Part shown: piece after piece, positions 28,259-43,402 of the stretch | How positions within the stretch are numbered: the stretch's first letter is position 1 | Layout of the letters: the number at the start of each line of letters is the position of its first letter | Source of the DNA: an uncultured Ruminococcus sp. | GTDB lineage: Bacteria; Bacillota; Clostridia; Oscillospirales; Acutalibacteraceae | NCBI GenBank assembly: GCA_902802105.1 | Contig: CADCKR010000010.1 | Location: 22,085 to 86,084 of the forward strand | Direction: 5' to 3' | DNA length: 64,000 bases | Notes under the pieces: model-generated | What the model was told of the DNA's origin: nothing | The model's database searches: none | Seen by the model: the letters and a program-made list of their open reading frames with translations, nothing else | Translations under genes and position numbers: made by a program

Positions 28259-28344
28259 GGCGGTATCACAAAACGCCGGCAGAGGATGATATTTTTACAG
28301 TATTTGGTTCTTGAACATATCAGATCCAGCGGTTTCAGTAAGGG
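28259..28344. repeat. Second dispersed repeat family, copy 2
   Basis: An 86-nt stretch aligning with 19046-19130, with shared blocks TATCACAAAA, AGAGGAT, AACATATCA and CAGCGGTTT. It begins 15 nt after the stop of the permease relic and fills the gap before the iron operon promoter. Confidence 0.65.
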
Positions 28345-28402
28345 TTTACCCCATGCAGACTGACGGCCAAAATTCATTTGCGTGAAGAGTAATAAAAAAC
28401 TG

Positions 28403-28461
28403 TTGACAAAGAATAAAAAAGGTGCTACAATATCGTTGGTTTAATTGAACTAACGATATTG
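28403..28461 (+). promoter_or_regulatory. Promoter and operator of the iron/fumarate operon
   Basis: TTGACA (28403-28408), 17-bp spacer, TACAAT (28426-28431). From 28428 to 28461 runs a 34-nt imperfect palindrome: perfect 10-nt arms CAATATCGTT and AACGATATTG around GGTTTAATTGAACT, itself nearly symmetric. It overlaps the -10 box and the start site, as a repressor operator should. Metal control by the DtxR-like protein at 43016-43402 is inferred. Confidence 0.7.
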
Positions 28462-28481
28462 CGCTTTTTGGGCGTTGGCTG

Positions 28482-28536
28482 ATACTAATTCCTTATAAAA
28501 AGCAGACTTATACTAATTCCTTATAAAAAGCAGACT
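28482..28536. repeat. Tandem 28-nt direct repeat in the iron operon leader
   Basis: Two identical 27-nt copies (28482-28508 and 28510-28536) separated by one T. Each contains ATACTAATTCC and AAAAAGCAGACT. They lie in the transcribed leader, 270 nt before the first gene. Confidence 0.85.
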
Positions 28537-28652
28537 CAGGTTTGCGAGGATGATTTTCGCAAGACGCGGCGCAGGACGCAGGAATCCTGACGGATTCCGA
28601 GAACGACAACAAAGCACTGCGGAAATCAGACCGCAAAAATTGTCTGCTTTTT
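28525..28652. repeat. MITE-like element with 11-bp terminal inverted repeats
   Basis: AAAAAGCAGAC (28525-28535) and its exact reverse complement GTCTGCTTTTT (28642-28652) bracket about 106 nt. The same ends with a GATTTTCGCA block recur at 57634-57673 in a much shorter form. No transposase is encoded. An RNA structure in the leader is an alternative reading. The rest of the 28462-28805 leader has no gene; a GC-rich hairpin (GGCCGCTTTTTTATGGCC) lies at about 28725-28742. Confidence 0.55.
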
Positions 28653-28805
28653 GTCAGGCAGTAGTATGATATCATTGCTGCCGCGGTCTGAACGGCAGAT
28701 CGTCGCTTTATGAGACCGGTAACGGCCGCTTTTTTATGGCCGGCGGTTCGATAAAACTAATCCGAGTTAGCCCAATGCAACATTTATTTGAAAGGAGAGT
28801 TGGAT

Positions 28806-30206
28806 TTGTACAGAAAAAAATACGCTTTGCTGCCCGGCATACTGATCGTTTTGGTTCTGATATTCGGAGCGTTCACGGTAAATGCCTTTGCGGCTGAAAG
28901 CGGCAGTGCTCAGGCGGATTATTATATGTCCTATAAAAAATACAAGGCCGCAGTTGATCCTGAGGGTACGAAAACCGTTACCTACAATGAGATCACCGAT
29001 CAGATATCGAATCTCCTGGAGGAGGGAATGAGAAGATATACGAGCGCAGCGGAAAAGGACGGAGATGACGGATATTACAAGCCGTTTTCCAATGCATACG
29101 GCTTCTGGTACGAGACCTCAGGCTTTGAAAAGACTGTAATGGGATATATTTCCGGTTCAAGAGTAACAGATGTTGAATTACAGTTTTCAACCATGAGAAA
29201 GAGTGTTTCTAACGGGGAAAGCCCGGAGGCTGTCCGTCAGGAGGTAGATACCCTTGTGTCCATGCTCAGAGAGGACGCAAACAAGCTTGATGAGCTTTTC
29301 GGATACAGCGGTGACGGCTCTTCCGGAGGAGGACTTGCCTGGGCGACATTTGGCGCGGTGTTCAGCATTATTGTCCGTGAGGGACTTGAGGCGATACTGA
29401 TAGTCGGCGCAATGGCGGCATACCTTATAAAAACAAAGAACAGGCGCGGAACGCTTTATGTTTATATCGGCGCAGTACTTGCGCTTATAGCAAGCGTTAT
29501 TATGGCAGTGATACTTTATTCGTTTGCAAGCAATGCAGGAAACTCCATACCGCAGGAGATAGTTGAAGGAGTTACGGCGCTTCTTGCGGTTGCTGTTCTC
29601 ATCTATGTTTCAAACTGGATGATATCAAAGGCAGAAGCGGATAACTGGACGAAATATCTTACGGATAAGGTCTCTGAGTCTGCCGGCAAGGGCAAAATGT
29701 TTGCGCTTGGCTTTACGTCCTTTCTGGCGGTATTCCGTGAGGGCGCTGAGGTGATACTTTTCTGTCAGCAGTATTTTACAAGGGCAGGTTCAATGGACAA
29801 CGGCTATCTTGCCGTGTTCGGAGGCATATTGGGAGGCCTTGCAACGGTCGCGCTGATATTTGTGCTGATAAGAGTGTTCGGCATCAGGATACCGCTCAAA
29901 CCGTTCTTTATGGCAACAAGCATACTTATGGCGATAATGTCCATAGCGTTCCTTGGTTCCGGTATGTGGGAGCTGTTTATGGACGGCGGTCTGGCTGACA
30001 GCATCGGCGGCTGGGTACAGCAGCTTGCTTCGACTATCCCGTGGCTGTCATGGATGTCCGGCAATGACACGCTTGCTTTCTTTGGCCTGTATCCCACATG
30101 GATAACGCTTATACCGCAGCTGATACTTCTTGTGATAACCGTTATCACCTTCGTTATCGCAATGAAGAAAAAGCCTGAGCCAAAGCAGCGTGCAGAAGAA
30201 AAATAA
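28806..30206 (+). CDS. FTR1-family high-affinity iron permease
   Basis: A 466-residue protein. A signal peptide (to about residue 30, ending AFA) leads to a 150-residue extracellular helical domain, then seven membrane helices. The two iron-transport motifs are REGLEA (residues 191-196) and REGAEV (311-316), the REXXE pairs of FTR1/EfeU/cFtr1 proteins. Start is TTG 28806 behind AAAGGAGAG. Partner genes downstream match the Campylobacter cFtr1-P19 iron system, in which the permease works with a periplasmic iron-binding P19 protein and an ABC-type FtsX complex. First gene of a 14-gene unit. Confidence 0.93.
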   Translation: MYRKKYALLPGILIVLVLIFGAFTVNAFAAESGSAQADYYMSYKKYKAAVDPEGTKTVTYNEITDQISNLLEEGMRRYTSAAEKDGDDGYYKPFSNAYGFWYETSGFEKTVMGYISGSRVTDVELQFSTMRKSVSNGESPEAVRQEVDTLVSMLREDANKLDELFGYSGDGSSGGGLAWATFGAVFSIIVREGLEAILIVGAMAAYLIKTKNRRGTLYVYIGAVLALIASVIMAVILYSFASNAGNSIPQEIVEGVTALLAVAVLIYVSNWMISKAEADNWTKYLTDKVSESAGKGKMFALGFTSFLAVFREGAEVILFCQQYFTRAGSMDNGYLAVFGGILGGLATVALIFVLIRVFGIRIPLKPFFMATSILMAIMSIAFLGSGMWELFMDGGLADSIGGWVQQLASTIPWLSWMSGNDTLAFFGLYPTWITLIPQLILLVITVITFVIAMKKKPEPKQRAEEK

Positions 30207-30226
30207 CTGCGCAATAGTCCGGCAAT

Positions 30227-30270
30227 GACCCGCAAAGGGTCCCGGTTTATTGAGAGCCTGTAAAGGCTCT
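30227..30270 (+). other. Two tandem intercistronic hairpins
   Basis: GACCC-GCAAA-GGGTC (30227-30241) and AGAGCC-TGTAAA-GGCTCT (30253-30270) lie between the FTR1 and P19 genes without T-runs. They more likely stabilise or process the message than stop it. Confidence 0.55.
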
Positions 30271-30307
30271 GATACAAAAACAAAAAGAATATCAGGAGGA
30301 ATTGAAA

Positions 30308-30952
30308 GTGAAAAAATTTGTAAGGATCTTAGCAGCAGCAATATGTTCAGCTCTTATGGCGGCAAGCCTTGCGGCTTGTAATTCAAACAGCGGTTCTTCA
30401 TCCAAGCCGGCTGAGGACTCAAAACCGGCTTCTGCTGCTGACGCAAAAACGGAATCTGAGGATGAAAAAGCAGACGAGCCCGATCTCGGCTTTACAGAGG
30501 TGCCGATCTTTGAGGACGTTGAAAAAGAGTTCCTTAATCTGACGGCAGTGTATTTTCAGGCTGTAGACATGACAGGCGGCTACAAGGCAGAGGACTATGA
30601 CTGCCACCTTGAGCTTGATGTAAAGGCTCTCAAAAACGGTCTCGGCTACGGTACAGGCGACTGGGTGCCCTACCTTACAGTAAACTATGAGGTAACAAAG
30701 AACGATACAAAGGCTAAGGTAAGCGAAGGCACATTCATGCCGATGGCTGCTTCTGACGGTCCGCACTACGGCGCAAACATAAAGATGGCCGGCGATGGTC
30801 TTTATACCGTCAAGTTTACGGTCAAGTTCCCGGATTCAAGCACATATCTCATTCATACTGATGAAACAGGCCCTGACGATCATGCATTCCCGAACGCTAT
30901 TGAATACACCTATGACAAGTGGCAGTTCACCAAGGGCGCATGGGCAGAGTGA
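30308..30952 (+). CDS. P19/Tp34-type iron-binding lipoprotein
   Basis: A 214-residue lipoprotein with lipobox LAAC (Cys24), a 40-residue Ser/Ala/Glu linker, then the iron-transport domain seen in P19 and Tp34: FEDVEKEFLNLTAVYFQAVD, LGYGTGDWVPYLTVNYEV, FMPMAASDGPHYGANIKM. The Glu/Met/His residues that bind metal in P19 (E in the first block, M and H in FMPM and GPHYG) are present. In a Gram-positive cell it would be tethered outside the membrane. GTG 30308 follows AGGAGGA by 7 nt. Confidence 0.93.
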   Translation: MKKFVRILAAAICSALMAASLAACNSNSGSSSKPAEDSKPASAADAKTESEDEKADEPDLGFTEVPIFEDVEKEFLNLTAVYFQAVDMTGGYKAEDYDCHLELDVKALKNGLGYGTGDWVPYLTVNYEVTKNDTKAKVSEGTFMPMAASDGPHYGANIKMAGDGLYTVKFTVKFPDSSTYLIHTDETGPDDHAFPNAIEYTYDKWQFTKGAWAE

Positions 30953-31007
30953 TCAAAGGCTGAAAGCCGGTGATCTCACTTTATAAATCCTGTGCCTGCA
31001 CAGCAAT

Positions 31008-31035
31008 ACTCCGACACGAGTTTTTGTGTCGGAGT
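31008..31035 (+). other. Intercistronic 10-bp stem-loop
   Basis: ACTCCGACAC (31008-31017) pairs perfectly with GTGTCGGAGT (31026-31035), loop GAGTTTTT, no T-run after the stem. It lies between the P19 and DUF2318 genes. Confidence 0.6.
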
Positions 31036-31090
31036 GATTTGCTTGTTACGGCGAGAGTATTTTTGGGATCAACAGCAAAGGGGGAAAAAT

Positions 31091-32404
31091 ATGCTTACAT
31101 ATCTTATCAATGTAACAGACGATATGCTCGCTTTATCACTTTTGACAGGTATGGTGCTTGCGTTTCTGGATACCTTCTGCAGGAGCAGCGGAAGGCTTAT
31201 CGGAAGGCTCGGCCTGCTTGCCGGTTTTATCGCTGCCGCTGTAAGGGCTTATTTTACCAATACACGCCGCATAAAGGACGGCTGGAAGGTGGGCACCTAC
31301 GGCTACGGATTTTCTCTTGGCTTTTTGGTGCTGACATTGATCCTGCTTGCAGTATTTGCATACTTCCTGATGCGGAAAAAAGAAAAAAGCAAAATGAAAA
31401 CAGCGGCAAGCTGGGTGATATCGCTTAGCTTTGCTCTGCTGATGACGGCGTTTCTTTACTGCTCACTGCCAAATGTGCTGGTCTATCCGTTTAAATTTGA
31501 TACGGGCGGCAACGGCATCATTTCCTCCGAGTTTTTCCTCAGACTTGGCGGTTATCTGCTTGGCATCATTATCTGTGCTTTGTCCGGCTTTGGCGTCTAC
31601 AAGCTTTATATGTGTTCGGCGCTGAAGGGTATAAGAGCCGTACCGTTTGCTGCAATGTGCACAGGCCTTGTTCTTTATGGAGTATACTTCTTCGGAAAGC
31701 TTATGGCGGTCCTTACTACAAGAAAGATCATTGACGATCTTGATCTGTTCAACTTTGCGGCACAGAGCAACAATCTTTCGCACTGGTACACCTATGGGCT
31801 GTTCATTCTTGCGCTTGTTGTGGGAATTATTTTCTTTATCAAAAGCTTTACAAAGAAGGAGCCGTTTTCCACCAAGGCTCAGCAAAGAAAGCAGCGCGCT
31901 TTGTGGAGAAGCGGAAAAAGATATTCCCTTGTATTGATCGCTTGCTTTATAGCGGGTATATTGTGTTCAACTCTTTTTGTAGAAATGAATAAGGTAGTTA
32001 TCCGTGAAGCGCCGGTAGAGGAGCCTGTTATTATAAAAGACGCAGGCGGAGAGGATAAGGAGCTGCAGGTACCTCTTGAAATGGTAAGCGACGGACATCT
32101 GCACCGTTTCGGCTATAAGACGGCAGAGGGCAGCCATGTTCGTTTTATCGTTGTTTTGAAGCAGGAGAACACAAGCAATTACGGAGTGGGGCTTGACGCC
32201 TGCGAGATATGCGGCGAAGCAGGATATTACGAAAACAACAGCGGTCAGATCGTGTGCAAAAAGTGCAATGTAATTATGAACCGCACTACCATAGGCATGA
32301 AGGGCGGCTGCAATCCTATAATAATAGATTACGATATGGATGAAAACGCAATTACTGTTCCCGTATCGGAAATGATAAAGAATCAGAAGATATTCAAAAA
32401 TTGA
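31091..32404 (+). CDS. DUF2318 membrane protein of the iron-uptake system
   Basis: A 437-residue protein with about eight membrane helices and a C-terminal extracellular DUF2318 domain. That domain carries CEICG, CKKC and MKGGCNP, together with HLHRFGY, a likely metal or cluster site. Homologues sit beside FTR1 and P19 in Campylobacter (Cj1660) and Bifidobacterium; the exact role is unknown, with electron or metal transfer suggested. ATG 31091 follows AAGGGGG; a longer frame from 30992 reads through the intercistronic stem and is rejected. Confidence 0.88.
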   Translation: MLTYLINVTDDMLALSLLTGMVLAFLDTFCRSSGRLIGRLGLLAGFIAAAVRAYFTNTRRIKDGWKVGTYGYGFSLGFLVLTLILLAVFAYFLMRKKEKSKMKTAASWVISLSFALLMTAFLYCSLPNVLVYPFKFDTGGNGIISSEFFLRLGGYLLGIIICALSGFGVYKLYMCSALKGIRAVPFAAMCTGLVLYGVYFFGKLMAVLTTRKIIDDLDLFNFAAQSNNLSHWYTYGLFILALVVGIIFFIKSFTKKEPFSTKAQQRKQRALWRSGKRYSLVLIACFIAGILCSTLFVEMNKVVIREAPVEEPVIIKDAGGEDKELQVPLEMVSDGHLHRFGYKTAEGSHVRFIVVLKQENTSNYGVGLDACEICGEAGYYENNSGQIVCKKCNVIMNRTTIGMKGGCNPIIIDYDMDENAITVPVSEMIKNQKIFKN

Positions 32405-32427
32405 TATCCTGCGGAAGGAGGGATAAT

Positions 32428-33726
32428 ATGTTTTTCAGAATGATAGCAGGTGCATTCCGCCGTCAATGGAAAAAGATGCTGATGATAGCTCTTACTGTAG
32501 CGCTCGGAGCCTCCATCGCTACAGCAATGCTCAATGTCATGCTTGGCGTAGGCGATAAGATAAACGAGGAGCTGAAAGCGTATGGCTCAAATATAACGGT
32601 CGTTCCCAATTCACAGGCTGTAATATCCGATCTTTATGATGTGGAGGACGGCGGAGAAAAGGAGGAGTATCTTGCTGAGGAGACTCTCGGAGAATTTCTC
32701 ACTATATTCTGGGCTAACAATATTACGGATTTTGCCCCTGTTATTGACACAAGCGTTACCGTCAAAGGCAAAGAGATGAAGCTTATAGGCACATGGTTCG
32801 ACCATCATTTTGAGTTCAGGAAAAAGGGTACTGTATACCAGCGCGATACAGGCATAATCAACCTCAGAAGCTGGTGGGATATTACAGACGGCAAATGGCT
32901 GGACGAAGCCGCTCTCAGCGGTGACGCCTATGCAATGGCAGGCAAAAGGGCTGCGGAAGCCCTCGGCGTAAAAGCCGGCGACAAGATAGAGGTCAAGGGC
33001 AGCGGCAATACCGAAAGTCTGGAGATCGTCGGGATATTTGAATCCGGCGATGATGAAGAAGAATGCATCTTTACAACGCTTTTTGCAGCTCAGAGATTAT
33101 CCGGAGCAGAGGGAAAATACAAAAAGGCTGAGGTCAGCGCGATCACCTCTCCTGATGATGAGCTGGCTCAGAAGGCCGCAAAGAATCCCGATCTTCTCAG
33201 CGGAGATGAATATGACCTCTGGTACTGTACCGCTTACGTCAGCTCTATCTGCTTTCAGATACAGGAGGCTATTCCCGAAGCTTCCGCAAGAGCGGTAAGG
33301 CAGATAGCGGATTCCGAGGGAAAGATACTCGAAAAGACGGAGCTTCTTATGGCGCTTATTACCCTTATGAGCCTTATCGGAGCAACTCTCGGCATTTCAA
33401 ATCTTGTTACGTCAAGCGTCATGGAGAGATCGGCAGAGCTTGCTCTTATGAAGGCTGTAGGAGCCAAAAACGGACAGATAACCCGTCTTGTTATGACTGA
33501 AATAATACTTACCGCTATTGCGGGAGCGGCGGCAGGATATTTTATGGGTTATGCCTTTGCGCAGGTAATAGGGCAGACAGTATTCTCTTCTGCTATTGAA
33601 ATGAGCGGTATGGTAGCGTTCCTGGTAACTGTCCTTATAATTGCGGTCACGTTCGTGGGAAGTATCCCTGCCATGAGAACGATATTGAGGCTGCGGCCGT
33701 CAGAAGTTCTTCACGGCGGACATTAA
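32428..33726 (+). CDS. FtsX-like ABC permease (iron locus, first)
   Basis: A 432-residue MacB/FtsX-type protein: one N-terminal helix (about residues 15-35), a large extracellular domain to about residue 300, then three helices with the coupling motif MERSAELALMKAVGAK. Such proteins transmit force rather than forming a channel. It matches the position of Cj1661 in the p19 locus. Ribosome site AAGGAGG. Confidence 0.9.
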   Translation: MFFRMIAGAFRRQWKKMLMIALTVALGASIATAMLNVMLGVGDKINEELKAYGSNITVVPNSQAVISDLYDVEDGGEKEEYLAEETLGEFLTIFWANNITDFAPVIDTSVTVKGKEMKLIGTWFDHHFEFRKKGTVYQRDTGIINLRSWWDITDGKWLDEAALSGDAYAMAGKRAAEALGVKAGDKIEVKGSGNTESLEIVGIFESGDDEEECIFTTLFAAQRLSGAEGKYKKAEVSAITSPDDELAQKAAKNPDLLSGDEYDLWYCTAYVSSICFQIQEAIPEASARAVRQIADSEGKILEKTELLMALITLMSLIGATLGISNLVTSSVMERSAELALMKAVGAKNGQITRLVMTEIILTAIAGAAAGYFMGYAFAQVIGQTVFSSAIEMSGMVAFLVTVLIIAVTFVGSIPAMRTILRLRPSEVLHGGH

Positions 33727-33738
33727 GGGGGCACAGAT

Positions 33739-34944
33739 ATGAATAAAAAACACCGTATGTTCGTCAGAATGGTGCTTGCGTCACTGCTCAGACGCCGTTC
33801 AAGAATGATAGTCGCTCTTCTTGCGATAGTTGTAGGAGCTACAATTCTTTCCGGTCTCGGACTGATATATTATGATGTTCCGCGCCAGATGAGCGCGCAG
33901 TTCCGCAGCTATGGAGCAAATGTGATACTTTCGCCTTCGGGCAGCGCAGAAATGACCGACAGCGAGATAAAAAGCGCGGTATCGGTTTTCCCGTCCGATA
34001 AGCTGGAGGGCTATACCCCGTACCGCTATGAAAATTCAAAGCTCAACAATCTTCCCGTAGGCATTTCGGGTACGGATTTTTCATCAGTCCTAAAAACAAG
34101 CCCGTACTGGCACATTTCGGGCGATCCGCCCGATGAAAACGGAAGAGCGCTTGTAGGCAGAAAGCTTGCCGAGAAATTCGGCCTGAGTGTCGGCGACAGC
34201 TTCAGCCTGCTGAATTCCTTTGAAATTACCGCTGACAGGGATATGACAGGCATACCCGATCACGAGATATACACCGATTCTCAGACCGGTGAGAGATACT
34301 GCGACCATACTCTTGATCTAAGGGTAGCGGGCATACTTGAAACAGGCGGCTCCGAAGAGGAATACATCTATGTGACTCTTGATGATATAAGTTATATCAT
34401 GCTCAGTGACAGAAGCTGCGATATCGTTGAGGTAAGTGTTGCCGCAAGTGAAAATGAATTGAAGGGCTATCTTGATGAGATCAACAAAAGGTCTGATACT
34501 CTTTCGGCAAAGCCGGTAAAGCGGGTAACGGCGTCTGAAAGCACGGTGCTTTCAAAGCTTGAATCGCTTGTGCTGATAGTTACGGCTGTGGTGCTTGCGC
34601 TGACTATGATATGCGTAGCTACCACGATGATGGCAGTAATAGCCGAAAGGCGGCGCGAGATCGGCCTGCGCAAGGCTCTTGGCGCGCTTGATTCGAGCAT
34701 TGTGGCCGAATTTTTGTCAGAGGGTCTGGTGCTTGGCGCAGCGGGAGGCATAATCGGCTCTGTTCTCGGCTATTTGTTTGCCGATGCGGTGAGCATGAAT
34801 GTTTTCAGCAGCGCGATAACATTCCGCCCGCTGCTGATACCTGTTGCGATAATTGCTTCGGTAGCGGTCACGGGGCTTGCTTGTCTGATACCGATCAGGA
34901 GCGCGGTCGATGTTGATCCGGCGCTTGTTCTGAAAGGCGAATAA
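33739..34944 (+). CDS. FtsX-like ABC permease (iron locus, second)
   Basis: A 401-residue paralogue of the preceding gene: N-terminal helix, extracellular domain, three C-terminal helices with ERRREIGLRKALGALDSS as coupling loop. It starts 12 nt after the first permease, so the two probably form a heterodimer with the following ATPase (as Cj1662 does). Confidence 0.9.
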   Translation: MNKKHRMFVRMVLASLLRRRSRMIVALLAIVVGATILSGLGLIYYDVPRQMSAQFRSYGANVILSPSGSAEMTDSEIKSAVSVFPSDKLEGYTPYRYENSKLNNLPVGISGTDFSSVLKTSPYWHISGDPPDENGRALVGRKLAEKFGLSVGDSFSLLNSFEITADRDMTGIPDHEIYTDSQTGERYCDHTLDLRVAGILETGGSEEEYIYVTLDDISYIMLSDRSCDIVEVSVAASENELKGYLDEINKRSDTLSAKPVKRVTASESTVLSKLESLVLIVTAVVLALTMICVATTMMAVIAERRREIGLRKALGALDSSIVAEFLSEGLVLGAAGGIIGSVLGYLFADAVSMNVFSSAITFRPLLIPVAIIASVAVTGLACLIPIRSAVDVDPALVLKGE

Positions 34945-34957
34945 GGAGGAATCAAAA

Positions 34958-35632
34958 TTGAAATTATTGGAGCTGAAAAATGTATCAAAAAGATACGGAA
35001 GCCTTTATGCACTTGACAATGTAAACCTGAGCATCGACAAGGGCGAATGGATAGCGATCATGGGACCGTCGGGCTCGGGCAAAAGCACAATGATGAACAT
35101 TATAAGCTGCATGGATAAGCCTACGGACGGTCAGGTTATCTTTGACGGCAGGGACATCACAAAGGACAGCAGAAGAAAGCTGACGGAATTTCACAGGGAT
35201 AAGATCGGACTTGTTTTCCAGCAGTTCCATCTTATCAATTATCTTAACGCTGTAGAAAATGTCATGGTAGCTCAGTATTATCACAGTATGCCCGATGAGA
35301 AGGAGGCGCTTGAAGCGCTGGAAAGAGTCGGCCTTAAAGACAGGGCGAAGCATCTGCCGAGCCAGCTTTCAGGCGGCGAACAGCAGAGGGTGTGCATAGC
35401 AAGAGCGCTTATCAATTCTCCGGAGCTTATTCTTGCCGATGAACCTACAGGAAATCTTGATGAAGCAAACGAAAATATTGTTCTTGATCTGTTCAGACAG
35501 CTTCACAAGGAGGGCACGAGCCTTATTGTCGTTACTCACGACCCTGAGGTCGGCGAGGTGGCGGAGCGTATTGTCCGGCTTGAACACGGAAAGATAATTT
35601 CCGACAAGAAAAACAGTCAGTTTGATAAATGA
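34958..35632 (+). CDS. ABC transporter ATPase (iron locus)
   Basis: A 224-residue LolD/MacB-type ATPase. Walker [11 protein letters not shown]-loop FQQFHL, signature LSGGEQQR, Walker [10 protein letters not shown] and H-loop VTHD are all intact. The start is TTG 34958 after AAGGAGGA. It powers the two FtsX-like permeases. Confidence 0.95.
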
Positions 35633-35646
35633 TGAGGTGAAAGGCT

Positions 35647-36111
35647 ATGAGCAGAAAATATTTCCCGAAAGCATGGTTTGCCTTGGTGTCATCGGCTATA
35701 ATATTATTATCATTTTCAGCCTGCGGCAGCAGCGGAGCCGGACCTGTAAATTACAGTGACGGCACTTATTCCGGCAGGAGCAGCAATTTTGATGAGGACG
35801 AAAACGGCAACGGCGCAGGCTATGGCGAAGTAAGCATCAAGATAGAAAACAATAAGATAACGGAGTGCACGTTCAGAATGTATAACCTTGACGGCACCCT
35901 GAAGGACGACAGCTACGGCGCAGACCTTTCGCGCGAAAACCGTCTGAAAGCGCAGAAGGCGGTACAGTCGGCAGATAAGTATGCGGCTGCCGTGATAGGC
36001 AAAGGCTCTGCGGAGGATATTGACGTTATAAGCGGAGCTACTATATCCTGTCAGGAATTTAAAGAGGCGGTAGGCGATGCTCTGAAAAAAGCTGCGAAGC
36101 CTGCGGAGTAA
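35647..36111 (+). CDS. FMN-binding-domain lipoprotein
   Basis: A 154-residue lipoprotein (lipobox LSFSAC, Cys26) with an FMN_bind domain. SGATIS (residues 129-134) preceded by Asp fits the flavinylation motif, where ApbE would attach FMN to Thr132. Extracellular FMN-bind proteins carry electrons, for example in flavin-based extracellular electron transfer. No apbE is in the window. Its place right after an iron-transport ATPase suggests a role in reducing Fe(III) outside the cell or passing electrons to the reductase encoded downstream; this is inference. Confidence 0.85.
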   Translation: MSRKYFPKAWFALVSSAIILLSFSACGSSGAGPVNYSDGTYSGRSSNFDEDENGNGAGYGEVSIKIENNKITECTFRMYNLDGTLKDDSYGADLSRENRLKAQKAVQSADKYAAAVIGKGSAEDIDVISGATISCQEFKEAVGDALKKAAKPAE

Positions 36112-36153
36112 AACGGATCCTTCCGTGAAGCTTTATCAATGGGGTCAAGTAAA

Positions 36154-36657
36154 ATGAAGATTATCAGAATAACAGCGCATATTATATTGAGCCTTACAGC
36201 GGCTTTTCTGACAGCGGGCGTGCCGGCTTTATACGTTCTGCATCAGACGCAGGAAAATGCTCCTGACGCGGTTTCCGGCGCAAGCATAAAGCTGCCGGAT
36301 AAGCCGTCGGGAGAGTATATCGTTTTGCTTAACCGTTCTCTGCATGAGGGCTCTGCTGACGACTGGACGGCTTTTTTCCGTGACGGTGAGCTGAATGTTA
36401 TTTTTGATGATATAAGCTGTATTGCGGCTCAGTCTGATGCTCCGGCGATACAGATGGCAGAAAGATTCCGGGCGCAGCTGCCGGAAAATCAGATGAGACT
36501 GCGCAGGGAAAATGCGCTGCTGCTCGCTTCCAAAGCAGAAAACGGCTGTATTGATGCGGCGATATTTTCAAAGGAGACCGCCGAAGCATTGAAGATAGAT
36601 GCAGGCGCGGCTGAGAACATTATCTGTATAGAAATAAAGGGCGGTGAGGAGAAATGA
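36154..36657 (+). CDS. Membrane-anchored protein of unknown function
   Basis: A 167-residue protein with one N-terminal helix (about residues 5-27) and a soluble domain outside the membrane. An SGAS tetrapeptide after the helix (DAVSGAS) recalls the flavinylation motif but lacks its last Ser/Thr. The rest (EYIVLLNRSLH, DDWTAFF, then a helical end) matches no family I know. It may act as a substrate-binding or periplasmic partner for the neighbours. The last 4 nt overlap the next gene (ATGA). Confidence 0.6.
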   Translation: MKIIRITAHIILSLTAAFLTAGVPALYVLHQTQENAPDAVSGASIKLPDKPSGEYIVLLNRSLHEGSADDWTAFFRDGELNVIFDDISCIAAQSDAPAIQMAERFRAQLPENQMRLRRENALLLASKAENGCIDAAIFSKETAEALKIDAGAAENIICIEIKGGEEK

Positions 36658-37193
36658 GAAGATTAAATACATTTCTTGTCATAGGCATAATACTGAGCTT
36701 TCTTTTTCATGCCGTTTCGGGCAGCATAAGATTATTCGGCGCAGATGCAGGCTATCCAAAAACCGCCGCAATGCTCTGTATTGCCTTAGTGGTTCTCCAT
36801 GTGGTAATAACTGCAGTACTGACAGCTAAAACGCTGAAAGCCATGCGTAAGAGCGGCAAAGGCTATTTCAGGGAAAATAAGCTTTTCTGGACAAGAAGGA
36901 TAAGCGGCGCCGCTCTGCTTATCCCGCTTGTGATGCATCTGCTCGTTTTCAGCGGCACAGGCGGAGAGACATACAGGCTCGTTTTCTTTCACAGCGGCAG
37001 GCTGACAGCTCAGATACTACTTATCGCTTGTCTGGCGCTGCATCTGCTGACAAATATCCGCCCTTTGCTTATCGGCATGGGAGTGAGATCACGCAGTCTG
37101 CTTTCTGCGGATATATGCTTTGTGCTTTCGGTCGTCCTTTTGCTTTGCTGCTGCGCATTCTGCGTTTACTATATTCGCTGGATGGAGTTTTGA
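36654..37193 (+). CDS. Four-histidine cytochrome-b-like membrane protein (probable fumarate reductase anchor)
   Basis: A 179-residue, five-helix protein. His19, His49, His95 and His130 sit inside helices I-IV, the arrangement expected for two b hemes, as in the di-heme anchors of Bacillus succinate dehydrogenase and Wolinella fumarate reductase. The start (RRLNTFLVIGIILSFLFHAV) resembles such anchors. The flavoprotein and iron-sulfur subunits lie 3.4 kb downstream in the same unit, so it probably links that enzyme to a quinone or to the FMN lipoprotein. Assigned from topology, not from strong identity. Confidence 0.7.
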   Translation: MRRLNTFLVIGIILSFLFHAVSGSIRLFGADAGYPKTAAMLCIALVVLHVVITAVLTAKTLKAMRKSGKGYFRENKLFWTRRISGAALLIPLVMHLLVFSGTGGETYRLVFFHSGRLTAQILLIACLALHLLTNIRPLLIGMGVRSRSLLSADICFVLSVVLLLCCCAFCVYYIRWMEF

Positions 37194-37210
37194 TACTAAA
37201 GGAGAAGAAA

Positions 37211-37666
37211 ATGATAGTTAATAAAAGAAAATTTAAAATAGCATTTACCGATATTCTGCTTACGGCATTGGGCGTGCTGTATTATTTTGGCATACATTAC
37301 TGGTTCCCTGTTTGTATGGCTATGGAGGACAAGCCGATGAACTGTCATTGGGCAGGAGAGGTGCTTTCCGCGCTTGCGGTTGTGCTGTCGGTGCTTTCTG
37401 CTGTACATATTCTTATGCCTGACGAAAAAATAAAGTCAGGCATGGATGTTTCAATGGCAGGCATTGCCGTATTGGCTGTCCTTATACCCGGAAATATAAT
37501 ACCTCTTTGCAAAAGCAGTGATATGATGTGCAGGAACGGCACTTCTATGTGGACGGCTGTGTTTATGATATCGTTTATTATTATTGCTGCTGCGGATATT
37601 TTTATATATCTGCAGTCATTGTCAGACAAAAAGCATAAAAGAAAAGGCTCGGGTGAAGGCGCATGA
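37211..37666 (+). CDS. DUF4418 membrane protein
   Basis: A 151-residue protein with four helices. MNCHWAGE near residues 44-51 and a later MMCRNGTSMW match DUF4418, a family usually found next to FtsX-like permeases; its role is unknown. The Met/Cys/His cluster might bind metal. ATG 37211 is used; a frame extending upstream overlaps the previous gene. It overlaps the next gene by ATGA. Confidence 0.75.
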   Translation: MIVNKRKFKIAFTDILLTALGVLYYFGIHYWFPVCMAMEDKPMNCHWAGEVLSALAVVLSVLSAVHILMPDEKIKSGMDVSMAGIAVLAVLIPGNIIPLCKSSDMMCRNGTSMWTAVFMISFIIIAAADIFIYLQSLSDKKHKRKGSGEGA

Positions 37667-38871
37667 GATTTTCAGTAAGGATCGCCTGCAAAAATATAAG
37701 GCGCAGGCCTGTCAGAGCCGCTTTGATGTGCATAATAGTTCTTTTTCTGTCTTTTACAGCGTTTATGGGAGGATATCTTATAATAAGCCTGCAAAACGGT
37801 CTTGACGGATACCGCGCAAGGCTCGGAGCGGATATCGTTGTAGTGCCGTCATCTGCTCAGGGACACGGGACTGTTGATAATGTCCTGCTGCATGGTATTA
37901 CCGGAAATTATTATATCCCGCAGGACAGCCTGGAAAAGCTTGACGGCATAGAAGGCATAGAGAAAAAGACCGGACAATTTTATCTTACCTCGGCAAAAGC
38001 AAGCTGCTGCAGCGTAAGAGTACAGATAATCGGCTTCGACCCCGAAACCGACTTTACAGTTCTGCCGTGGATAAGCAGCAGCATCACCGGCACCTTAGGC
38101 GACGGCGATATCATCATCGGCGCGGATATAGCATATCCTGCCGATGACTGTCTGCGCTTTTACGGAGAAAGCTATCGTGTGGCAGGTCAGCTTGAAAAGA
38201 CCGGCACAGGACTTGACAATGCTGTGTTTACAAACAGGAGGACCATAAGGAAAATGGCGGAGTCTGCGGCAGGCTCCATAGAAAGAGGATCGCTCAGGGG
38301 CGTTGATACCGAAAATGCGGTCTCATGTGTGCTTATCAGGGTGAAGGACGGCTATGACAGCTCTGAGGTTGCCGATGATATAAATATCCATGTTTCAAAG
38401 GTAAGAGCAACTCCTTCTGCAAGCATGATAGGCTCTGTTGCGGACGGCTTTGGAAGCGTATCCGTGTTTATCAGCGCTGCTGCAGCGGGGATATGGCTCA
38501 TTGCCGTTGTAATAATGATCGCTGTGTTTGCGCTTATGATGAATGAGCGCAGAAAGGAATTCGCTGTCCTGCGTGTGGCAGGCGCATCGGGAAAAATGAT
38601 AGTTTCGGCAGTATCATGGGAGGCTGCGCTTATCGGCGCGGCAGGCTCGCTCATAGGGCTTGCAGTTTCACTGCTGCTCACAGCGCCGCTTTCCGAGAGT
38701 ATAAGGAATCATTTTTCACTTCCCTTCATGCAGCCGGATATCGGCGTTGTGGTCATGCTTTCGGCCGGCGCAGTCATAATGCCGATAATTGTCGGAGTTG
38801 CTGCGGCGGTGCTGTCAGCGCTCAGGATAACCAAAAACGAAACGGGACTTTTGCTGAGGGAGGATGCATGA
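37663..38871 (+). CDS. FtsX-like ABC permease (third in the operon)
   Basis: A 402-residue MacB/FtsX-like permease: one N-terminal helix, extracellular domain with a paired Cys (ASCCS near residue 113), three C-terminal helices with NERRKEFAVLRVAGASG as coupling loop. With the DUF4418 protein and the next ATPase it forms a second, smaller transporter module. The stop overlaps the next start (TGATG). Confidence 0.9.
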   Translation: MRFSVRIACKNIRRRPVRAALMCIIVLFLSFTAFMGGYLIISLQNGLDGYRARLGADIVVVPSSAQGHGTVDNVLLHGITGNYYIPQDSLEKLDGIEGIEKKTGQFYLTSAKASCCSVRVQIIGFDPETDFTVLPWISSSITGTLGDGDIIIGADIAYPADDCLRFYGESYRVAGQLEKTGTGLDNAVFTNRRTIRKMAESAAGSIERGSLRGVDTENAVSCVLIRVKDGYDSSEVADDINIHVSKVRATPSASMIGSVADGFGSVSVFISAAAAGIWLIAVVIMIAVFALMMNERRKEFAVLRVAGASGKMIVSAVSWEAALIGAAGSLIGLAVSLLLTAPLSESIRNHFSLPFMQPDIGVVVMLSAGAVIMPIIVGVAAAVLSALRITKNETGLLLREDA

Positions 38872-39545
38872 TGAAGCTGAGAGCGGAAAATGTAGGCAGA
38901 ATGTATTTTCGCAGCAGCAAAAATACAAATTTCTTTTATGCTGTCGAATCACTTGACCTTGAACTTGAGGAGGGAAAAATCACCGTTATTACAGGCAGAT
39001 CGGGCAGCGGGAAAACTACCCTTATCAATATGCTCTGCGGTCTGTTAACGCCGTCCTGCGGGCGTGTTCTTCTGGATGACAAGGATCTGTATGCTTCAGG
39101 CGACAGAGAGCGCTCCCTTTTGAGGAACCGCAGCTTTGGCATTATCCCGCAGGGACAGACAGGCCTGCAGTGCCTTACCGCAGCGGAAAATGTTCTGCTG
39201 CCGGTGTCTATGTACGGCAGTTCAAAGGGCAAAGAGGACAAGGCAAGAATACTTCTTGAAAAACTGGGAATAGATGATCTGTGGGACGTTTATTCAAATG
39301 AGCTTTCCGGCGGCGAGCTGAGAAGAATGTCCGTTGCGAGAGCGCTGATAAACGATCCCGGAATAATTATCGCCGATGAACCTACAGGAGACCTTGACGC
39401 AGATACGACAGTGCTTGTAATGGAGCTGCTGAAAGAACGTGCACGCAATGGGGCAGCTGTCCTTATCGTAACGCATGACAAGGACGTTATGCCTTATGCG
39501 GATACAGTTTATACAATGGAAAAGGGTGTTCTGAAGAAGGCGTGA
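38871..39545 (+). CDS. ABC transporter ATPase (second module)
   Basis: A 224-residue ATPase with Walker A GRSGSGKTT, signature LSGGELRR, Walker B IIIADEPTG and VTHD. The ATG 38871 overlaps the permease stop by one base; ATG 38868 is an alternative. Paired with the DUF4418 protein and the 37663 permease. Confidence 0.93.
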   Translation: MKLRAENVGRMYFRSSKNTNFFYAVESLDLELEEGKITVITGRSGSGKTTLINMLCGLLTPSCGRVLLDDKDLYASGDRERSLLRNRSFGIIPQGQTGLQCLTAAENVLLPVSMYGSSKGKEDKARILLEKLGIDDLWDVYSNELSGGELRRMSVARALINDPGIIIADEPTGDLDADTTVLVMELLKERARNGAAVLIVTHDKDVMPYADTVYTMEKGVLKKA

Positions 39546-39563
39546 TCTGAGGAGGTATTTACT

Positions 39564-40526
39564 GTGAAAAATAAAAAGGCTGCAATAATAGGAGCCGGCT
39601 TTGTAGGAGCTTCTGCCGCATATTCTCTGATGCTTGACGGTACAGCAGATGAGATAGTGCTGATAGACATTGACCATAAAAAGGCCTGCGGCGAAGCGGA
39701 CGATATTGCTCACGGCGTTGAAGGTACGGCAAATGCGGCAATATATGCCGGAGCTTACAGCGATTGCAGGGACAGCGATATTATCATCATAACTGCCGGC
39801 AGAGGCAGGCTGCCCGGAGAGAGCCGCATTGATCTTGCCGCAGAGAATATAAAAATAATACGCAGCGTTACAGATTCCGTCGAGCCGTACTATAGCGGCT
39901 GTCCGATACTGATGATCTCCAACCCCGTTGATATTCTTACCGCAAGCGCGGAGCGCCTGCTTGGAACTCCGGAAGGCAGGGTTTTCGGTTCGGGCTGTAT
40001 GCTTGATTCCTCACGTTTCAGAAGATGTATTGCCCGCACTGTTTTTCCGAGTGATAAAGCGCGTCAGGCAGGCTGCGCCGAAAGTATAGGCGCCTTTGTC
40101 ATAGGCGAACACGGCGATGCGCAGATACCTCTCTGGAGCGGAGTTTCCGTGTGCGGAAAAACTGCGGAGGAATATTGCGCGGAGCATGATATCGTCTGGA
40201 ATGATGACGTAAGACAGGCAATATACCGCGAGACAAGGAATATGGGCTCGTCCATTATAAAAGCCAAGGGAAGAACAAATTACGGGATTGCTGTCTGCGC
40301 TTCACGCATAGCAAGAGCAGTGCTTGATGACGAGCGCTTTACAGCCTCTGTAAGCAGTACAATGGGGCTTGGCGGGGATAATATCAGGGCGTCGCTCTCA
40401 CTTCCCTATGTGATAGGCGGCAAAGGACTGATATCAGGAGCGCCTTTAAGTCTTTCCCCTGCCGAGAAGGAATGTTTTGAAAAGAGCGCTGCCGGAATGA
40501 CGGAAATGATAAAAGATCTGCTTTGA
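39564..40526 (+). CDS. Malate/lactate dehydrogenase family enzyme, malate-type specificity residue
   Basis: A 320-residue NAD-dependent 2-hydroxyacid dehydrogenase. NAD motif GAGFVGASAA, Asp35, catalytic Asp148 and His183 (GEHGD), substrate-binding Arg88 and Arg151 are present. At the position that separates lactate (Gln) from malate (Arg) enzymes, the loop reads AGRGRLPGESR with Arg82. This suggests oxaloacetate/malate as substrate, although GESR is LDH-like. A malate enzyme would feed fumarate to the reductase encoded next, if fumarase is elsewhere. Confidence 0.85.
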   Translation: MKNKKAAIIGAGFVGASAAYSLMLDGTADEIVLIDIDHKKACGEADDIAHGVEGTANAAIYAGAYSDCRDSDIIIITAGRGRLPGESRIDLAAENIKIIRSVTDSVEPYYSGCPILMISNPVDILTASAERLLGTPEGRVFGSGCMLDSSRFRRCIARTVFPSDKARQAGCAESIGAFVIGEHGDAQIPLWSGVSVCGKTAEEYCAEHDIVWNDDVRQAIYRETRNMGSSIIKAKGRTNYGIAVCASRIARAVLDDERFTASVSSTMGLGGDNIRASLSLPYVIGGKGLISGAPLSLSPAEKECFEKSAAGMTEMIKDLL

Positions 40527-40541
40527 GATAGGGTGAATGTT

Positions 40542-42191
40542 ATGAGGAACGATACCGCTTCTGCAAACGATATATTAAATAAAAGACCGGATAAAATACC
40601 TGCGGTAAATATTATAGGCGCGGGACTGGCGGGGCTTTCGGCTGCGCTTGCCCTTGCGCGTTCGGGTATATCGTGCAGGCTTGTTTCGCCTATGCCGTCG
40701 GAACGGGCGCAGTCTGTCATGGCGGAGGGCGGCATCAACGCGGCTCTTGACACTATGGGAGAAAATGACACTGCGGCCGGACATTTTAATGATACCATGA
40801 ATGGAGGCGTATATCTTGCCGACCCTGACGCCGTATGGGCTCTTTGCAGCAATGCGCCGGAAACGGTACGTATGCTGCTTGCTCTCGGCGCGGCTCTCAG
40901 TACAGAAAACGGCAGGCCTGTCCTGCGCAGCTTCGGCGGACAGAAAAAAAAGCGTACCGCCTATGCAAGAAGCAGTACGGGAAAGATACTCATGACTGCG
41001 CTGACAGACGCGGTAAGGCGATATGAGGCTGAGGGGCTTGTGCAAAGATATTCTCACCACAGGCTGCATTCGCTTAATATCAGAAACGGTGAATGCTTTG
41101 GCGCAAGGGTGCTTGACCTGCACCGCAGGGTATTATCGGATATGAAAGGCTCCGTAATACTTGCAAGCGGAGGAATGAACGGTCTTTTTCCGGGCATGAC
41201 TACAGGCTCTGTCTTAAATACGGGTGATGCTGCCGCTCTTGCCTTTGTCAGCGGCGCAGAGCTTGCCAATCCCGAAATGATACAGTACCATCCTACTACC
41301 TTCCCGATATCGGGGAAAAGATGTCTTGTAAGCGAAGCCGCAAGAGGAGAAGGCGGGCGGCTGTTTATCATGCGGAATAATGCGCGGTGGTACTTTATGG
41401 AGGAAAAATATCCGGAGCTTGGCAATCTTATGCCGAGAGATGTGGTATCAAGAGAGATCGAGCTTGTCAGGAATGATAAAGAGTGCAGCGGTCAGGTCTG
41501 CCTTGATATGACAGCGCTTGACAGGGCTGTATGGGAAAGCAGGCTTTCAGACCTGCGTGAGGAGTGTATAAGGTACCTTGGCAGAGATCCTGCCGCCGTA
41601 CCTTTGGAGGTATCGCCCGGAATACATTATTTTATGGGCGGAATAAATGTTGACAAAGCCCACCGCACAAGTATTGCAAGGCTTTATGCCGCAGGAGAGT
41701 GCGCCTGTCAGTATCACGGGGCAAACCGTCTGGGCGGCAATTCGATGCTTGGAGCGGTATTCGGAGGACAGACCGCCGCAAAAACCGCCGCATCGGAAAT
41801 CATACCTGATAATGCAGGCGAGGAGGAGATCGCAGGCGGTGAAGAGCTTGAGATCATGCAGCCTGCCGGCGTGCCGGATAAGGCTGCAGAACTGCTCAGG
41901 GAGGCGCTCGGCATCTTTCGCAGCGGCGAAAAGCTTGAGAGCGCCGTTCAAAAAATGCAGGAGCTTATCGACAATGAAAATGATGCTCTGCAAAGGAACA
42001 GAATGATACTCGGCAAGGCTGTTCTGCTTGGAGCCCTGAACAGAAAGGAAAGCCGCGGAGCGCATACAAGGACCGACTATCCCGAAAGGGACGATGCGCA
42101 TTACCGCAAAACCACCATAGCTGTATTTGACGGGAAGGAAATAGCTGTGAGTTTTCGTGATATTCAGTCTGAAAGAGGTGAAGCCGAATGA
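40542..42191 (+). CDS. frdA: Fumarate reductase/succinate dehydrogenase flavoprotein subunit
   Basis: A 549-residue flavoprotein. FAD motif GAGLAG (residues 26-31), QYHPTTF, SEAARGEGG, MPRDVVSRE, GIHYFMGGI and HGANRLGGNSMLG supply the catalytic His and Arg residues of fumarate reductase. The His that binds FAD covalently in Escherichia coli and Wolinella enzymes is replaced by Gln57 (RAQSVMAEGG), so FAD should be held non-covalently, as in L-aspartate oxidase. The following iron-sulfur gene argues against NadB. ATG 40542 follows AGGGTG; the last 4 nt overlap frdB. Confidence 0.88.
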   Translation: MRNDTASANDILNKRPDKIPAVNIIGAGLAGLSAALALARSGISCRLVSPMPSERAQSVMAEGGINAALDTMGENDTAAGHFNDTMNGGVYLADPDAVWALCSNAPETVRMLLALGAALSTENGRPVLRSFGGQKKKRTAYARSSTGKILMTALTDAVRRYEAEGLVQRYSHHRLHSLNIRNGECFGARVLDLHRRVLSDMKGSVILASGGMNGLFPGMTTGSVLNTGDAAALAFVSGAELANPEMIQYHPTTFPISGKRCLVSEAARGEGGRLFIMRNNARWYFMEEKYPELGNLMPRDVVSREIELVRNDKECSGQVCLDMTALDRAVWESRLSDLREECIRYLGRDPAAVPLEVSPGIHYFMGGINVDKAHRTSIARLYAAGECACQYHGANRLGGNSMLGAVFGGQTAAKTAASEIIPDNAGEEEIAGGEELEIMQPAGVPDKAAELLREALGIFRSGEKLESAVQKMQELIDNENDALQRNRMILGKAVLLGALNRKESRGAHTRTDYPERDDAHYRKTTIAVFDGKEIAVSFRDIQSERGEAE

Positions 42192-42931
42192 AATACCTTC
42201 TTGATATATGGCGGCAGAGGGACAAGGACACTGACGGTTCGTTCAGGACATATCTGTACGAAACAGACTCCGATACCGTCACTGTTGCGTCTGCGCTTTC
42301 AGAGCTCAACAAAAGAAAAGAGCTTGCTGATATTGAAGGCGTTGTCAGCGGAAGGATAGTATGGGAATGCAGCTGTATGCAAAAGAAATGCGGCGCCTGC
42401 GCTATGCTGATAAACGGAAAGCCTCGTCTTGCCTGTGATGCAAGGCTTTCCGATAATAAAAGCGGCAGGCTCAGGATAGAGCCGCTGAGGAAATTCCCCT
42501 TGGTTGCCGATCTGACGGTAAACAGGCAGATAATTTTTGACGATCTCAGACAGATGCAGGTCTGGTCGGAATCGGACATATTTGCCGATGACAGGAATAA
42601 TACGGTAATGTACGAAGCCTCGCGCTGTCTGCAATGCGGCTGCTGTCTTGAGGTCTGTCCCAATTTTGCCGTGGGCGAAAAATTTTTCGGAATGTCGGCT
42701 ATGGTGCCTGCTTCAAGGCTGTTAGCGGGAATGACGGGCAGCTCCTTTGACAGACTGAGAAAGCAATACGGAAAGGTCATTACTGACGGCTGCGGAAAAT
42801 CCCTTGCCTGTCGGAATATATGTCCTGCCGGGATAGATATAGAAGGCCTGATGGCAAGATCGAATGCGGCGGTTCTCTGGAAATGGTTTTCAAAGCGCCG
42901 CAGCAGGCATGATAACGGTAATAATACTTAG
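42188..42931 (+). CDS. frdB: Fumarate reductase/succinate dehydrogenase iron-sulfur subunit
   Basis: A 247-residue iron-sulfur protein. The N-terminal ferredoxin-like domain has a [2Fe-2S] set (C61, C63 or neighbour, C68, C71, C83), and the C-terminal domain has CLQCGCCLEVCP (147-157) and a second set with Cys202, Cys208 and Cys212-Pro. It passes electrons between the flavoprotein and the cytochrome-b-like anchor. Last gene of the unit, followed by a terminator. Confidence 0.92.
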   Translation: MKYLLDIWRQRDKDTDGSFRTYLYETDSDTVTVASALSELNKRKELADIEGVVSGRIVWECSCMQKKCGACAMLINGKPRLACDARLSDNKSGRLRIEPLRKFPLVADLTVNRQIIFDDLRQMQVWSESDIFADDRNNTVMYEASRCLQCGCCLEVCPNFAVGEKFFGMSAMVPASRLLAGMTGSSFDRLRKQYGKVITDGCGKSLACRNICPAGIDIEGLMARSNAAVLWKWFSKRRSRHDNGNNT

Positions 42932-42963
42932 TTAGTATAAGGATAATAGCTGAATATATAAAG

Positions 42964-43002
42964 CTTCCGCGCCGACAGACGTTTTCGGTGCGGGAGTTTT
43001 TG
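42964..43002 (+). terminator. Terminator of the iron/fumarate operon
   Basis: A 12-bp stem (CTTCCGCGCCGA with TCGGTGCGGGAG, G-T pairs included) followed by TTTTTG. It lies between two convergent genes. Confidence 0.85.
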
Positions 43003-43015: not shown

Positions 43016-43402
43016 TCAGTTTTCTCTGTAGGTCTCAAGATGCCTGCAAAGCGCGTTAAAGGTTTCCGGGCTGATATCGTGTTCTATTTTGCAGGCGTCC
43101 TCTTCGGCAATATCTTCCGGAACGCCGAGACGTACAAAAAGGTCGGTGAGTATCTTATGGCGGGCATAGATCTTTTCGGCTATTTCTAATCCTCTTTCGG
43201 TTATAGTAATATAATTATCGTTGTCCATTGTTATGTAACCCTTTTCTTTCAGGCGTTTGGTAGTATATGTTACGCTTGGCTTTGTTATGCCCAGGTGACG
43301 AGCTACATCAATGGATCGGATATATCCCTTGTTTTTCTTTATCATAAGCATAGCTTCAAGATAATCCTCGGTCGTTTTTTCTGAATTTATATCAGGTCGC
43401 AT
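43016..43402 (-). CDS. DtxR-family metal-dependent repressor
   Basis: A 128-residue regulator: winged helix in the first 60 residues (recognition region around GITKPSVTYTTKRL), then a dimerisation/metal domain. Metal ligand candidates are Asp13, Glu16, His82, Cys104, Glu107 and His108. The C-x-x-E-H arrangement is closer to iron-sensing DtxR/IdeR than to MntR. No SH3-like third domain. Encoded convergently right after the iron operon, it is the obvious candidate to bind the palindromes at 27824 and 28428. Confidence 0.9.
   Translation of the reverse strand: MRPDINSEKTTEDYLEAMLMIKKNKGYIRSIDVARHLGITKPSVTYTTKRLKEKGYITMDNDNYITITERGLEIAEKIYARHKILTDLFVRLGVPEDIAEEDACKIEHDISPETFNALCRHLETYREN

Follow-up and report, generated by a model that had tools for sequence, protein, structure and literature searches.

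A 64,000-nucleotide stretch of DNA from an uncultured Ruminococcus sp. (contig CADCKR010000010.1; hereafter the window) carries, at positions 28806-42931, a unit in which a P19-type iron-uptake system is encoded together with a complete fumarate reductase, FrdABC. It comprises 15 same-strand genes, 14 of them with Pfam matches: FTR1, P19, FtrD/DUF2318, two FtsX permeases and an ATP-binding cassette (ABC) ATPase, an FMN-bind lipoprotein, a protein that we call x12, a cytochrome b (cytb), a DUF4418-FtsX-ATPase module, a dehydrogenase and FrdAB. The initial annotation of this DNA listed 14 genes, having left out x12 (36139-36657). New here are the identity of cytb as di-heme anchor, the completeness of FrdABC and the conservation of the iron-FrdABC unit among near relatives; no description of a P19-FrdABC unit was found in the literature consulted (largely open papers, as main texts without supplementary tables). 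We rate as slightly better than an even bet that the products of the locus form an iron importer equipped with a dedicated electron sink, in which Fe(II) would be oxidised outside and its electrons passed inward to fumarate. The genome of the window spans 2.0 Mb in 50 contigs and is 89.5% complete; its closest named relatives by FtsX1 are metagenome-assembled genomes (MAGs) of uncultured Ruminococcus, RUG12907 and RUG11172, where RUG presumably denotes the rumen. The 15 genes are as follows.

28806..30206, +, FTR1-family iron permease, two REGxE motifs (Pfam, motif reading)
30302..30952, +, P19 (Iron_transport), extracytosolic iron-binding protein (PF10634, 150 bits)
31091..32404, +, FtrD-like/DUF2318 membrane protein, CxxC-x14-CxxC-x14-C (Pfam, motif reading)
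32428..33726, +, FtsX/MacB-type permease 1, FtsX1 (Pfam)
33739..34944, +, FtsX/MacB-type permease 2 (Pfam)
34958..35632, +, ABC ATPase 1 (Pfam)
35647..36111, +, FMN-bind lipoprotein, ApbE motif DVISGAT (Pfam, motif reading)
36139..36657, +, x12, tethered protein, ApbE-like motif DAVSGAS (structure model, sequence)
36654..37193, +, FrdC/SdhC-type cytochrome b, cytb, five long helices (Pfam, NCBIfam, model, Foldseek)
37211..37666, +, DUF4418 membrane protein (Pfam)
37663..38871, +, FtsX-type permease 3 (Pfam)
38868..39545, +, ABC ATPase 2 (Pfam)
39564..40526, +, lactate/malate dehydrogenase family protein (Pfam)
40533..42191, +, FrdA flavoprotein with intact catalytic residues and Gln60 where the FAD-linking His would be (Pfam, alignment)
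42188..42931, +, FrdB iron-sulfur subunit with 2Fe-2S, 4Fe-4S and 3Fe-4S Cys sets (Pfam; TIGR00384 over cut-off)

The product of cytb had been described simply as a four-His membrane protein, which is correct but overlooks that it is an FrdC/SdhC-type subunit. His 19, 49, 95 and 130 are invariant in 55/55 sequences, and the protein matches Sdh_cyt (Pfam, E 5e-4) and TIGR02970 (E 2e-5). A profile of 48 homologues reaches mycobacterial SdhC (E 2e-4), and the five-helix model (predicted local confidence, pLDDT, 90) retrieved in Foldseek the cytochrome b558 of Chloroflexus succinate dehydrogenase first (9lay_C, E 0.004) and Wolinella FrdC next (1qlb_C, E 0.12). Since no Foldseek match to the model reached E <= 0.001, the assignment leans on this consistent ranking. 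Judged by sequence and model, the four-His protein is a complex II-type di-heme anchor, and FrdABC is hence complete at the locus.

In FrdA, H253, E268, R271, R302, H365 and R399, to which we assign roles in the dicarboxylate site and catalysis, are present in 51/51 sequences, as is Gln60. The latter aligns with the His of RSHS in Wolinella FrdA, presumably the residue that links flavin adenine dinucleotide (FAD); none of the 51 FrdA has a His for covalent FAD at this position. For relatives whose FAD is noncovalent, fumarate reduction is reported to be the only direction (PMC9557727), and Gln in place of the FAD-linking His points to electron flow towards fumarate. Gln60 is common also to the FrdA of a genome with FrdABC away from P19 (G610) and to three distant P19-less relatives. 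The three Cys sets of FrdB were kept in the 50 sequences checked. The only other strong FAD_binding_2 match in the genome of the window looks, by eye, like NadB beside NadC.

The iron half has the features of a P19-type system: the two REGxE motifs of FTR1, which we take as its hallmark; a lipoprotein-like P19 N-terminus (by sequence) and P19 H102, E104, M146, H155 and H185, presumably the metal ligands, which are 100% conserved in 71 sequences, with the protein itself matching solved P19 structures; the DUF2318 Cys set; the FtsX pair; and the ATPase. The Cys motif of FtrD is probably Fe-S; its first spacer is 14 residues, compared to 13 in the published motif CxxC-x13-CxxC-x14/15-C (PMC6083913).

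The FMN-bind lipoprotein, named for flavin mononucleotide (FMN), carries the strict ApbE recognition motif D-x-x-[ST]-G-A-[ST] (PMC12052999) in 68/71 sequences, and ApbE is encoded in 8/8 genomes examined. In G051, whose P19 cluster lacks Frd, the sole FMN_bind match and the sole ApbE match adjoin inside that cluster, which ties flavinylation to the P19 system. In the model of x12, an N-terminal helix, which would be a membrane anchor, is joined by a linker of low confidence to a small alpha/beta domain. Its linker holds D-A-V-S-x-A-[ST], close to the ApbE recognition motif; with the Gly relaxed the motif occurs in 53/60 sequences, against a relaxed background of 26 in 277128 residues, and x12 is a putative second flavinylated carrier. 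Searches with x12 gave no Pfam match at E 0.01, no NCBIfam match at E 0.001 and, by sequence, no convincing solved relative; by fold it resembled 3noh (E 4e-6, template-modelling score 0.50 by query) and lobes of periplasmic binding proteins, a resemblance that yields no function.

Conservation of the iron-FrdABC unit

Frequencies among near relatives were obtained from 80 named loci, the best 80 of 533 stretches ranked by similarity to FtsX1 of the window, nearly all from MAGs and including some near-duplicates (e.g. L045/L047). Forty-five have cytb, FrdA and FrdB, 27 end too early and are incomplete, and eight with at least 7 kb are incomplete. Where a named locus extends 7 kb or more beyond FtsX1 on the downstream side, the set x12-cytb-FrdA-FrdB is carried in 39 of 47 cases; where it extends 3.5 kb or more on the upstream side, P19 is seen in 60 of 61. 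Ten of the 49 named loci with FrdA show no P19, nine of them being truncated on the upstream side and L085 having its whole upstream stretch but no P19 call. Gene order is nearly constant in the 45 complete loci: FMN-bind, x12 and cytb are consecutive in 42, and cytb directly precedes FrdA in 43. One carrier, Catonella morbi ATCC 51271 (L092), is cultured.

P19 itself is uncommon, being found in 4/300 genomes of the family, 6/394 of the order (one weak) and 7/391 of the class, with the genome of the window included each time. Four of the P19 loci recovered in this way have x12-cytb-FrdA-FrdB (L019, L021, L022 and L023) and, with the window, represent three families of the order. The five class-level P19 loci all lack Frd, so that the iron half is the older and more widespread unit. 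The initial proposal that the iron and frd halves are conserved together therefore holds for near relatives (39/47) but not for distant P19 loci, in which they are often apart (7/11).

With the cytb profile, 9/394 genomes of the order sample were detected, five of them strongly, and four of these five also have P19. Of the four weak relatives, three stand beside FrdAB (L124, L125, L127) and L126 does not. In a tree, the 51 FrdAs of P19-type loci form one clade relative to four P19-less FrdAs, with that of G610 as sister (support 0.947), which fits one join kept since. FtsX1 and FrdA distances correlate with r 0.66, a value reached in 0/999 permutations and to which shared species history contributes.

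The DUF4418-FtsX-ATPase module, which in the window is inserted together with the dehydrogenase between cytb and FrdA, goes with the iron half, because it is present in P19 loci without Frd too. The dehydrogenase is a different case. It scored higher with lactate (268 bits) than with malate (213 bits) NCBIfam models, none over cut-off, and has at the substrate-specificity position an Arg, as in 1y6j, where 6j9s has Gln. Taking Arg at this position as the rule for malate, this residue suggests a malate-type enzyme despite the higher rank of the lactate models. A malate-type dehydrogenase had been counted as part of the unit, but at this locus it is confined to the window and 3/80 named loci (L030, L032 and L051) and is thus not core but a lineage-specific, local insertion.

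Other arrangements were seen in passing. A more distant FrdAB clade with Gln60 and an adjoining weak cytb lies away from P19 in L125 (4627-7474), L127 (3613-6477) and L124 (7825-10672); in L125, FrdAB follows a gene for a lipoprotein-like product that has no Pfam match. Fourteen loci, among them L052 (17083-17967), L085 (16946-17851) and L109 (16256-17299), encode a secreted-looking transglutaminase-like protein within the cluster or close to it, and all six of these proteins that were scanned have Transglut_core; a distantly similar protein (4/5 queries match) precedes the P19-less FrdABC of G610 (L123).

Electron flow and its alternatives

In the proposed mechanism, P19 and FtrD would present Fe(II) at the outer face of the membrane and FTR1 would take iron in while it is oxidised; for FTR1-type uptake, Fe(II) oxidation has been put forward as the driving force (PMC11966278). 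Electrons would pass via FtrD and the FMN lipoprotein, perhaps with x12 beside the membrane, into the two cytb hemes and then through FrdB to FrdA, where fumarate would be reduced in the cytosol. Both ABC/FtsX modules would perform ATP-driven work, and in the lineage of the window the malate dehydrogenase may help feed the fumarate branch. Both ends of this chain are supported; heme occupancy, flavinylation of x12, electron direction and Fe(II) as donor, and with them the middle of the chain from Fe(II) to fumarate, we infer.

UbiA-family prenyltransferases are needed for quinone synthesis. Matches over cut-off were found in 0/8 genomes and then in 5/50, with controls positive in 14/14 both times; 47/52 carriers examined (mostly MAGs, completeness mostly not given) have none, so that home-made quinol is an unlikely donor. 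The tests covered 47/49 named FrdA loci (46 and L092), the genomes of L058, L083 and L126 being left out, and four related P19-less FrdABC genomes tested had no UbiA over cut-off either. Together, FrdA Gln60, the few UbiA genes and the oxidation model for FTR1 favour flow from Fe(II) outside to fumarate inside. That FrdABC is here a quinone-independent complex II with an extracytosolic donor, Fe(II), reached via flavoproteins and the di-heme cytb, has in our judgement a little short of an even chance.

Several observations weigh against the importer with a fumarate sink. The main puzzle is the absence of genes for heme synthesis: ferrochelatase was found in 0/8 genomes (controls 8/14) and AhbD over cut-off in 0/8, so that the hemes would be imported or made by another route. 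Candidates for the Ahb route matched in 8/8 genomes, none over 500 bits, and were treated as generic radical S-adenosylmethionine proteins because controls matched likewise (14/14, one of which passes). Every cytb family match by sequence lies under its curated cut-off, the strict ApbE motif is found in a minority of x12 (16/60), and the dehydrogenase that would feed fumarate has the narrow distribution described above. Five carriers, of 46 in the larger test, have a UbiA-family gene over cut-off, and two more genomes have matches under it. FrdA is missing from 6/47 named loci that extend 7 kb or more downstream and from 7/11 evaluable P19 loci of the family, order and class samples (L018, L020 and L025-L029; G854 and G510 were left out of the 11 and L024 is too short to judge), so that a P19 system can work without a fumarate sink. 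Conversely, G610 has FrdABC with no P19 match in its genome listing or nearby. Earlier papers favour a reductive role (PMC8238504, PMC6083913).

Such a role would make the unit an assimilatory ferric reductase, with electrons moving outward via cytb to the flavoproteins, Fe(III) reduced outside and FrdAB serving as a side branch or as the place where electrons enter. Iron reduction by the FMN-binding or thioredoxin-like protein of P19 clusters has been suggested in those same papers (PMC8238504, PMC6083913), other flavinylated systems have been read as outward-working in the literature consulted, and cytb has very weak Foldseek matches to cytochrome b561 (E 0.41) and STEAP4 (E 3.6). The conserved core has, however, no NAD(P)H-binding domain for electron input, an NAD-binding dehydrogenase being present only in the window and three loci. 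Moreover, the lack of the FAD-linking His in 51/51 FrdA argues against succinate oxidation, succinate is a weak reductant, and most carriers examined probably make no quinol of their own; we consider this explanation unlikely. One form named in the initial annotation, external Fe(III) reduction through a menaquinone chain, fits poorly with the 47/52 carriers without UbiA and with FrdA without the FAD-linking His. FrdABC could instead be an ordinary quinol:fumarate reductase working on scavenged quinone, placed in the operon for regulation or by shared ancestry. It resembles di-heme complex II, it has relatives away from P19, rumen and gut communities could supply quinones, and 5/46 carriers have a UbiA-family gene over cut-off. 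Against this stand the tight FMN-bind-x12-cytb-FrdA order (42-43/45 loci) and the single clade formed by FrdA of P19-type loci, and it would make little sense to raise an enzyme rich in Fe-S and heme along with iron-starvation genes if the enzyme did not serve uptake; we find this account quite unlikely.

The clade might also act on another unsaturated acid or serve as an iron/redox switch, which would still be an inward sink. FrdA reaches the curated cut-off of none of the 25 NCBIfam families displayed (of 42), and many substrates in the superfamily are unassigned (PMC8238504), but the fumarate/succinate-site residues are intact in 51/51 FrdA and the adjoining malate-type dehydrogenase (window, L030, L032, L051) would feed a fumarate branch, making this very unlikely. 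That two unrelated operons came to adjoin by chance or only recently, as the lineage-specific dehydrogenase and the distant P19 loci without Frd might suggest, is scarcely credible given that the join recurs in three families and 45 named loci, nearly always in the same order, and that FtsX1 and FrdA distances correlate as they do.

Transcription signals and regulation

The following features flank or interrupt the unit.

28403..28431, +, promoter-like site TTGACA-17-TACAAT, the -10 preceded by TG (11/12 consensus matches, promoter scan)
28435..28454, strand not assigned, palindrome GTTGGTTTAATTGAACTAAC, operator-like, immediately downstream of the -10 (GTTAG-N6/N10-CTAAC in its N10 form with one mismatch)
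31007..31036, +, terminator-like hairpin of 13 pairs in the P19-FtrD gap (terminator scan, folding)
42960..43000, strand not assigned, terminator-like hairpin between the convergent frdB and DtxR-family genes (folding of gaps)
43016..43402, -, DtxR-family metal-dependent repressor, candidate regulator (Pfam match)

The strong promoter proposed initially is there, in a scan that gave 39 promoter-like sites compared to 18.8 expected, and so are the four gene overlaps, at 36654, 37663, 38868 and 42188, that at 38868 being ATGATG and read as ATGA or TGATG according to the start. Gaps, whose lengths depend on the start codons chosen in this analysis, had been given as mostly 0-20 nt; they are 6-27 nt or 4-nt overlaps, except for FTR1-P19 (95 nt) and P19-FtrD (138 nt). 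The single terminator claimed corresponds to the hairpin after frdB, strong on folding and followed by a run of T's though not listed by the general terminator scan, but a second terminator-like hairpin, in the P19-FtrD gap, had been overlooked. That gap folds in relatives with z <= -3 in 56/71 gaps folded (counted by hand; 20 simple shuffles per gap). Because stable folds recur there, the 15 genes may not share a single mRNA with even expression, and the recurrent folds suggest that FTR1-P19 is expressed differently from the remaining genes. No riboswitch or other RNA family was found as regulator at gathering threshold; a search of 28200-31200 gave one chance-level match to a small nucleolar RNA and nothing else, and a search for tRNA found none.

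Sites of the form GTTAG-N6 to N10-CTAAC (<=1 mismatch) lie upstream of 61/69 loci compared to 4.4 expected from simple shuffles. A stronger form of this evidence is the density of exact N6/N10 copies in the same loci, 53 in 31 kb upstream versus 26 in 1166 kb elsewhere (~76x denser), although the pattern was derived from a few of these loci and both counts are partly post hoc. Exact copies are present in 39/69 loci. The N6 form is absent from the window promoter, with one near-match in the window, at chance level; the longer palindrome around GTTGGTTTAATTGAACTAAC (28428-28461) scores as terminator-like too, and an untargeted search for palindromes ahead of FTR1 yielded no clear picture overall. 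The DtxR-family gene converges on the operon from the 3' side, and DtxR genes lie inside 10/80 named stretches; that a DtxR-type regulator acts on the palindrome is a reasonable guess.

Around the unit, the leader between promoter and FTR1 (28482-28667) holds ATACTAATTCCTTATAAAAAGCAGACT (27 bases) twice in direct orientation and once, diverged, in inverted orientation. More copies occur on other contigs of the window genome (L122/L128, L133) and one in L072, and the repeat looks like a dispersed element of the miniature inverted-repeat transposable type. Upstream, 27854-28243 encodes a lone C-terminal FtsX fragment of 129 aa, perhaps a remnant permease, directly preceded at 27823 by GTTAGATTAATCTAAT, the single such match in the window and thus at chance level. 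The gene at 44709-46580, unrelated to the operon, may encode a secreted esterase; a CBM26 module for starch binding is possible in it, the match (27.9 bits) falling slightly short of the cut-off.

Relation to known systems

Fumarate would, if the proposed importer is correct, replace O2 in an anaerobic counterpart of yeast Fet3-Ftr1, iron supply would be tied to fumarate in gut bacteria, and a complex II without quinone would widen the range of this enzyme family. The presence of a complete membrane-spanning module inside an operon kept among near relatives makes the direction of electrons directly testable.

The Campylobacter P19/FTR1 cluster (1649-1656) has the same order of FTR1, P19, DUF2318, two FtsX and ATPase, and compared to it and to Gram-positive P19 clusters the window adds x12, the di-heme cytb and FrdAB. 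P19 clusters have FMN-bind in Gram-positives and thioredoxin in Gram-negatives (PMC6083913, PMC8238504), with FMN-bind in 260 clusters (PMC8238504) and in those of Firmicutes and others (PMC6083913); the replacement of thioredoxins noted initially is hence real but already published, and the main texts of both papers name no electron partner for the P19 cluster. Like Wolinella quinol:fumarate reductase and Chloroflexus succinate dehydrogenase, the window encodes the same FrdA catalytic residues, the FrdB Cys sets and a five-helix, four-His anchor, but it lacks the FAD-linking His, has a doubtful quinone partner and is encoded in an iron operon. With FtrABCD of Brucella and Bordetella it shares a P19-like protein (FtrA), an FTR1-like permease (FtrC) and a proposed mode of uptake powered by Fe(II) oxidation (PMC11966278); in contrast, no gene for an FtrB-type cupredoxin is among the 15, and the sink would be fumarate via complex II. 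ApbE-flavinylated extracytosolic systems have in common with it an FMN-bind lipoprotein, ApbE in the genome and a four-His cytochrome as membrane step, for which a DUF4405 di-heme cytochrome has been proposed (PMC11334425), whereas the window cytochrome is of complex II type and has no DUF4405 match in the Pfam scan. Unlike the extracellular FMN-linked fumarate reductases, FrdAB of the window is of the cytosolic type.

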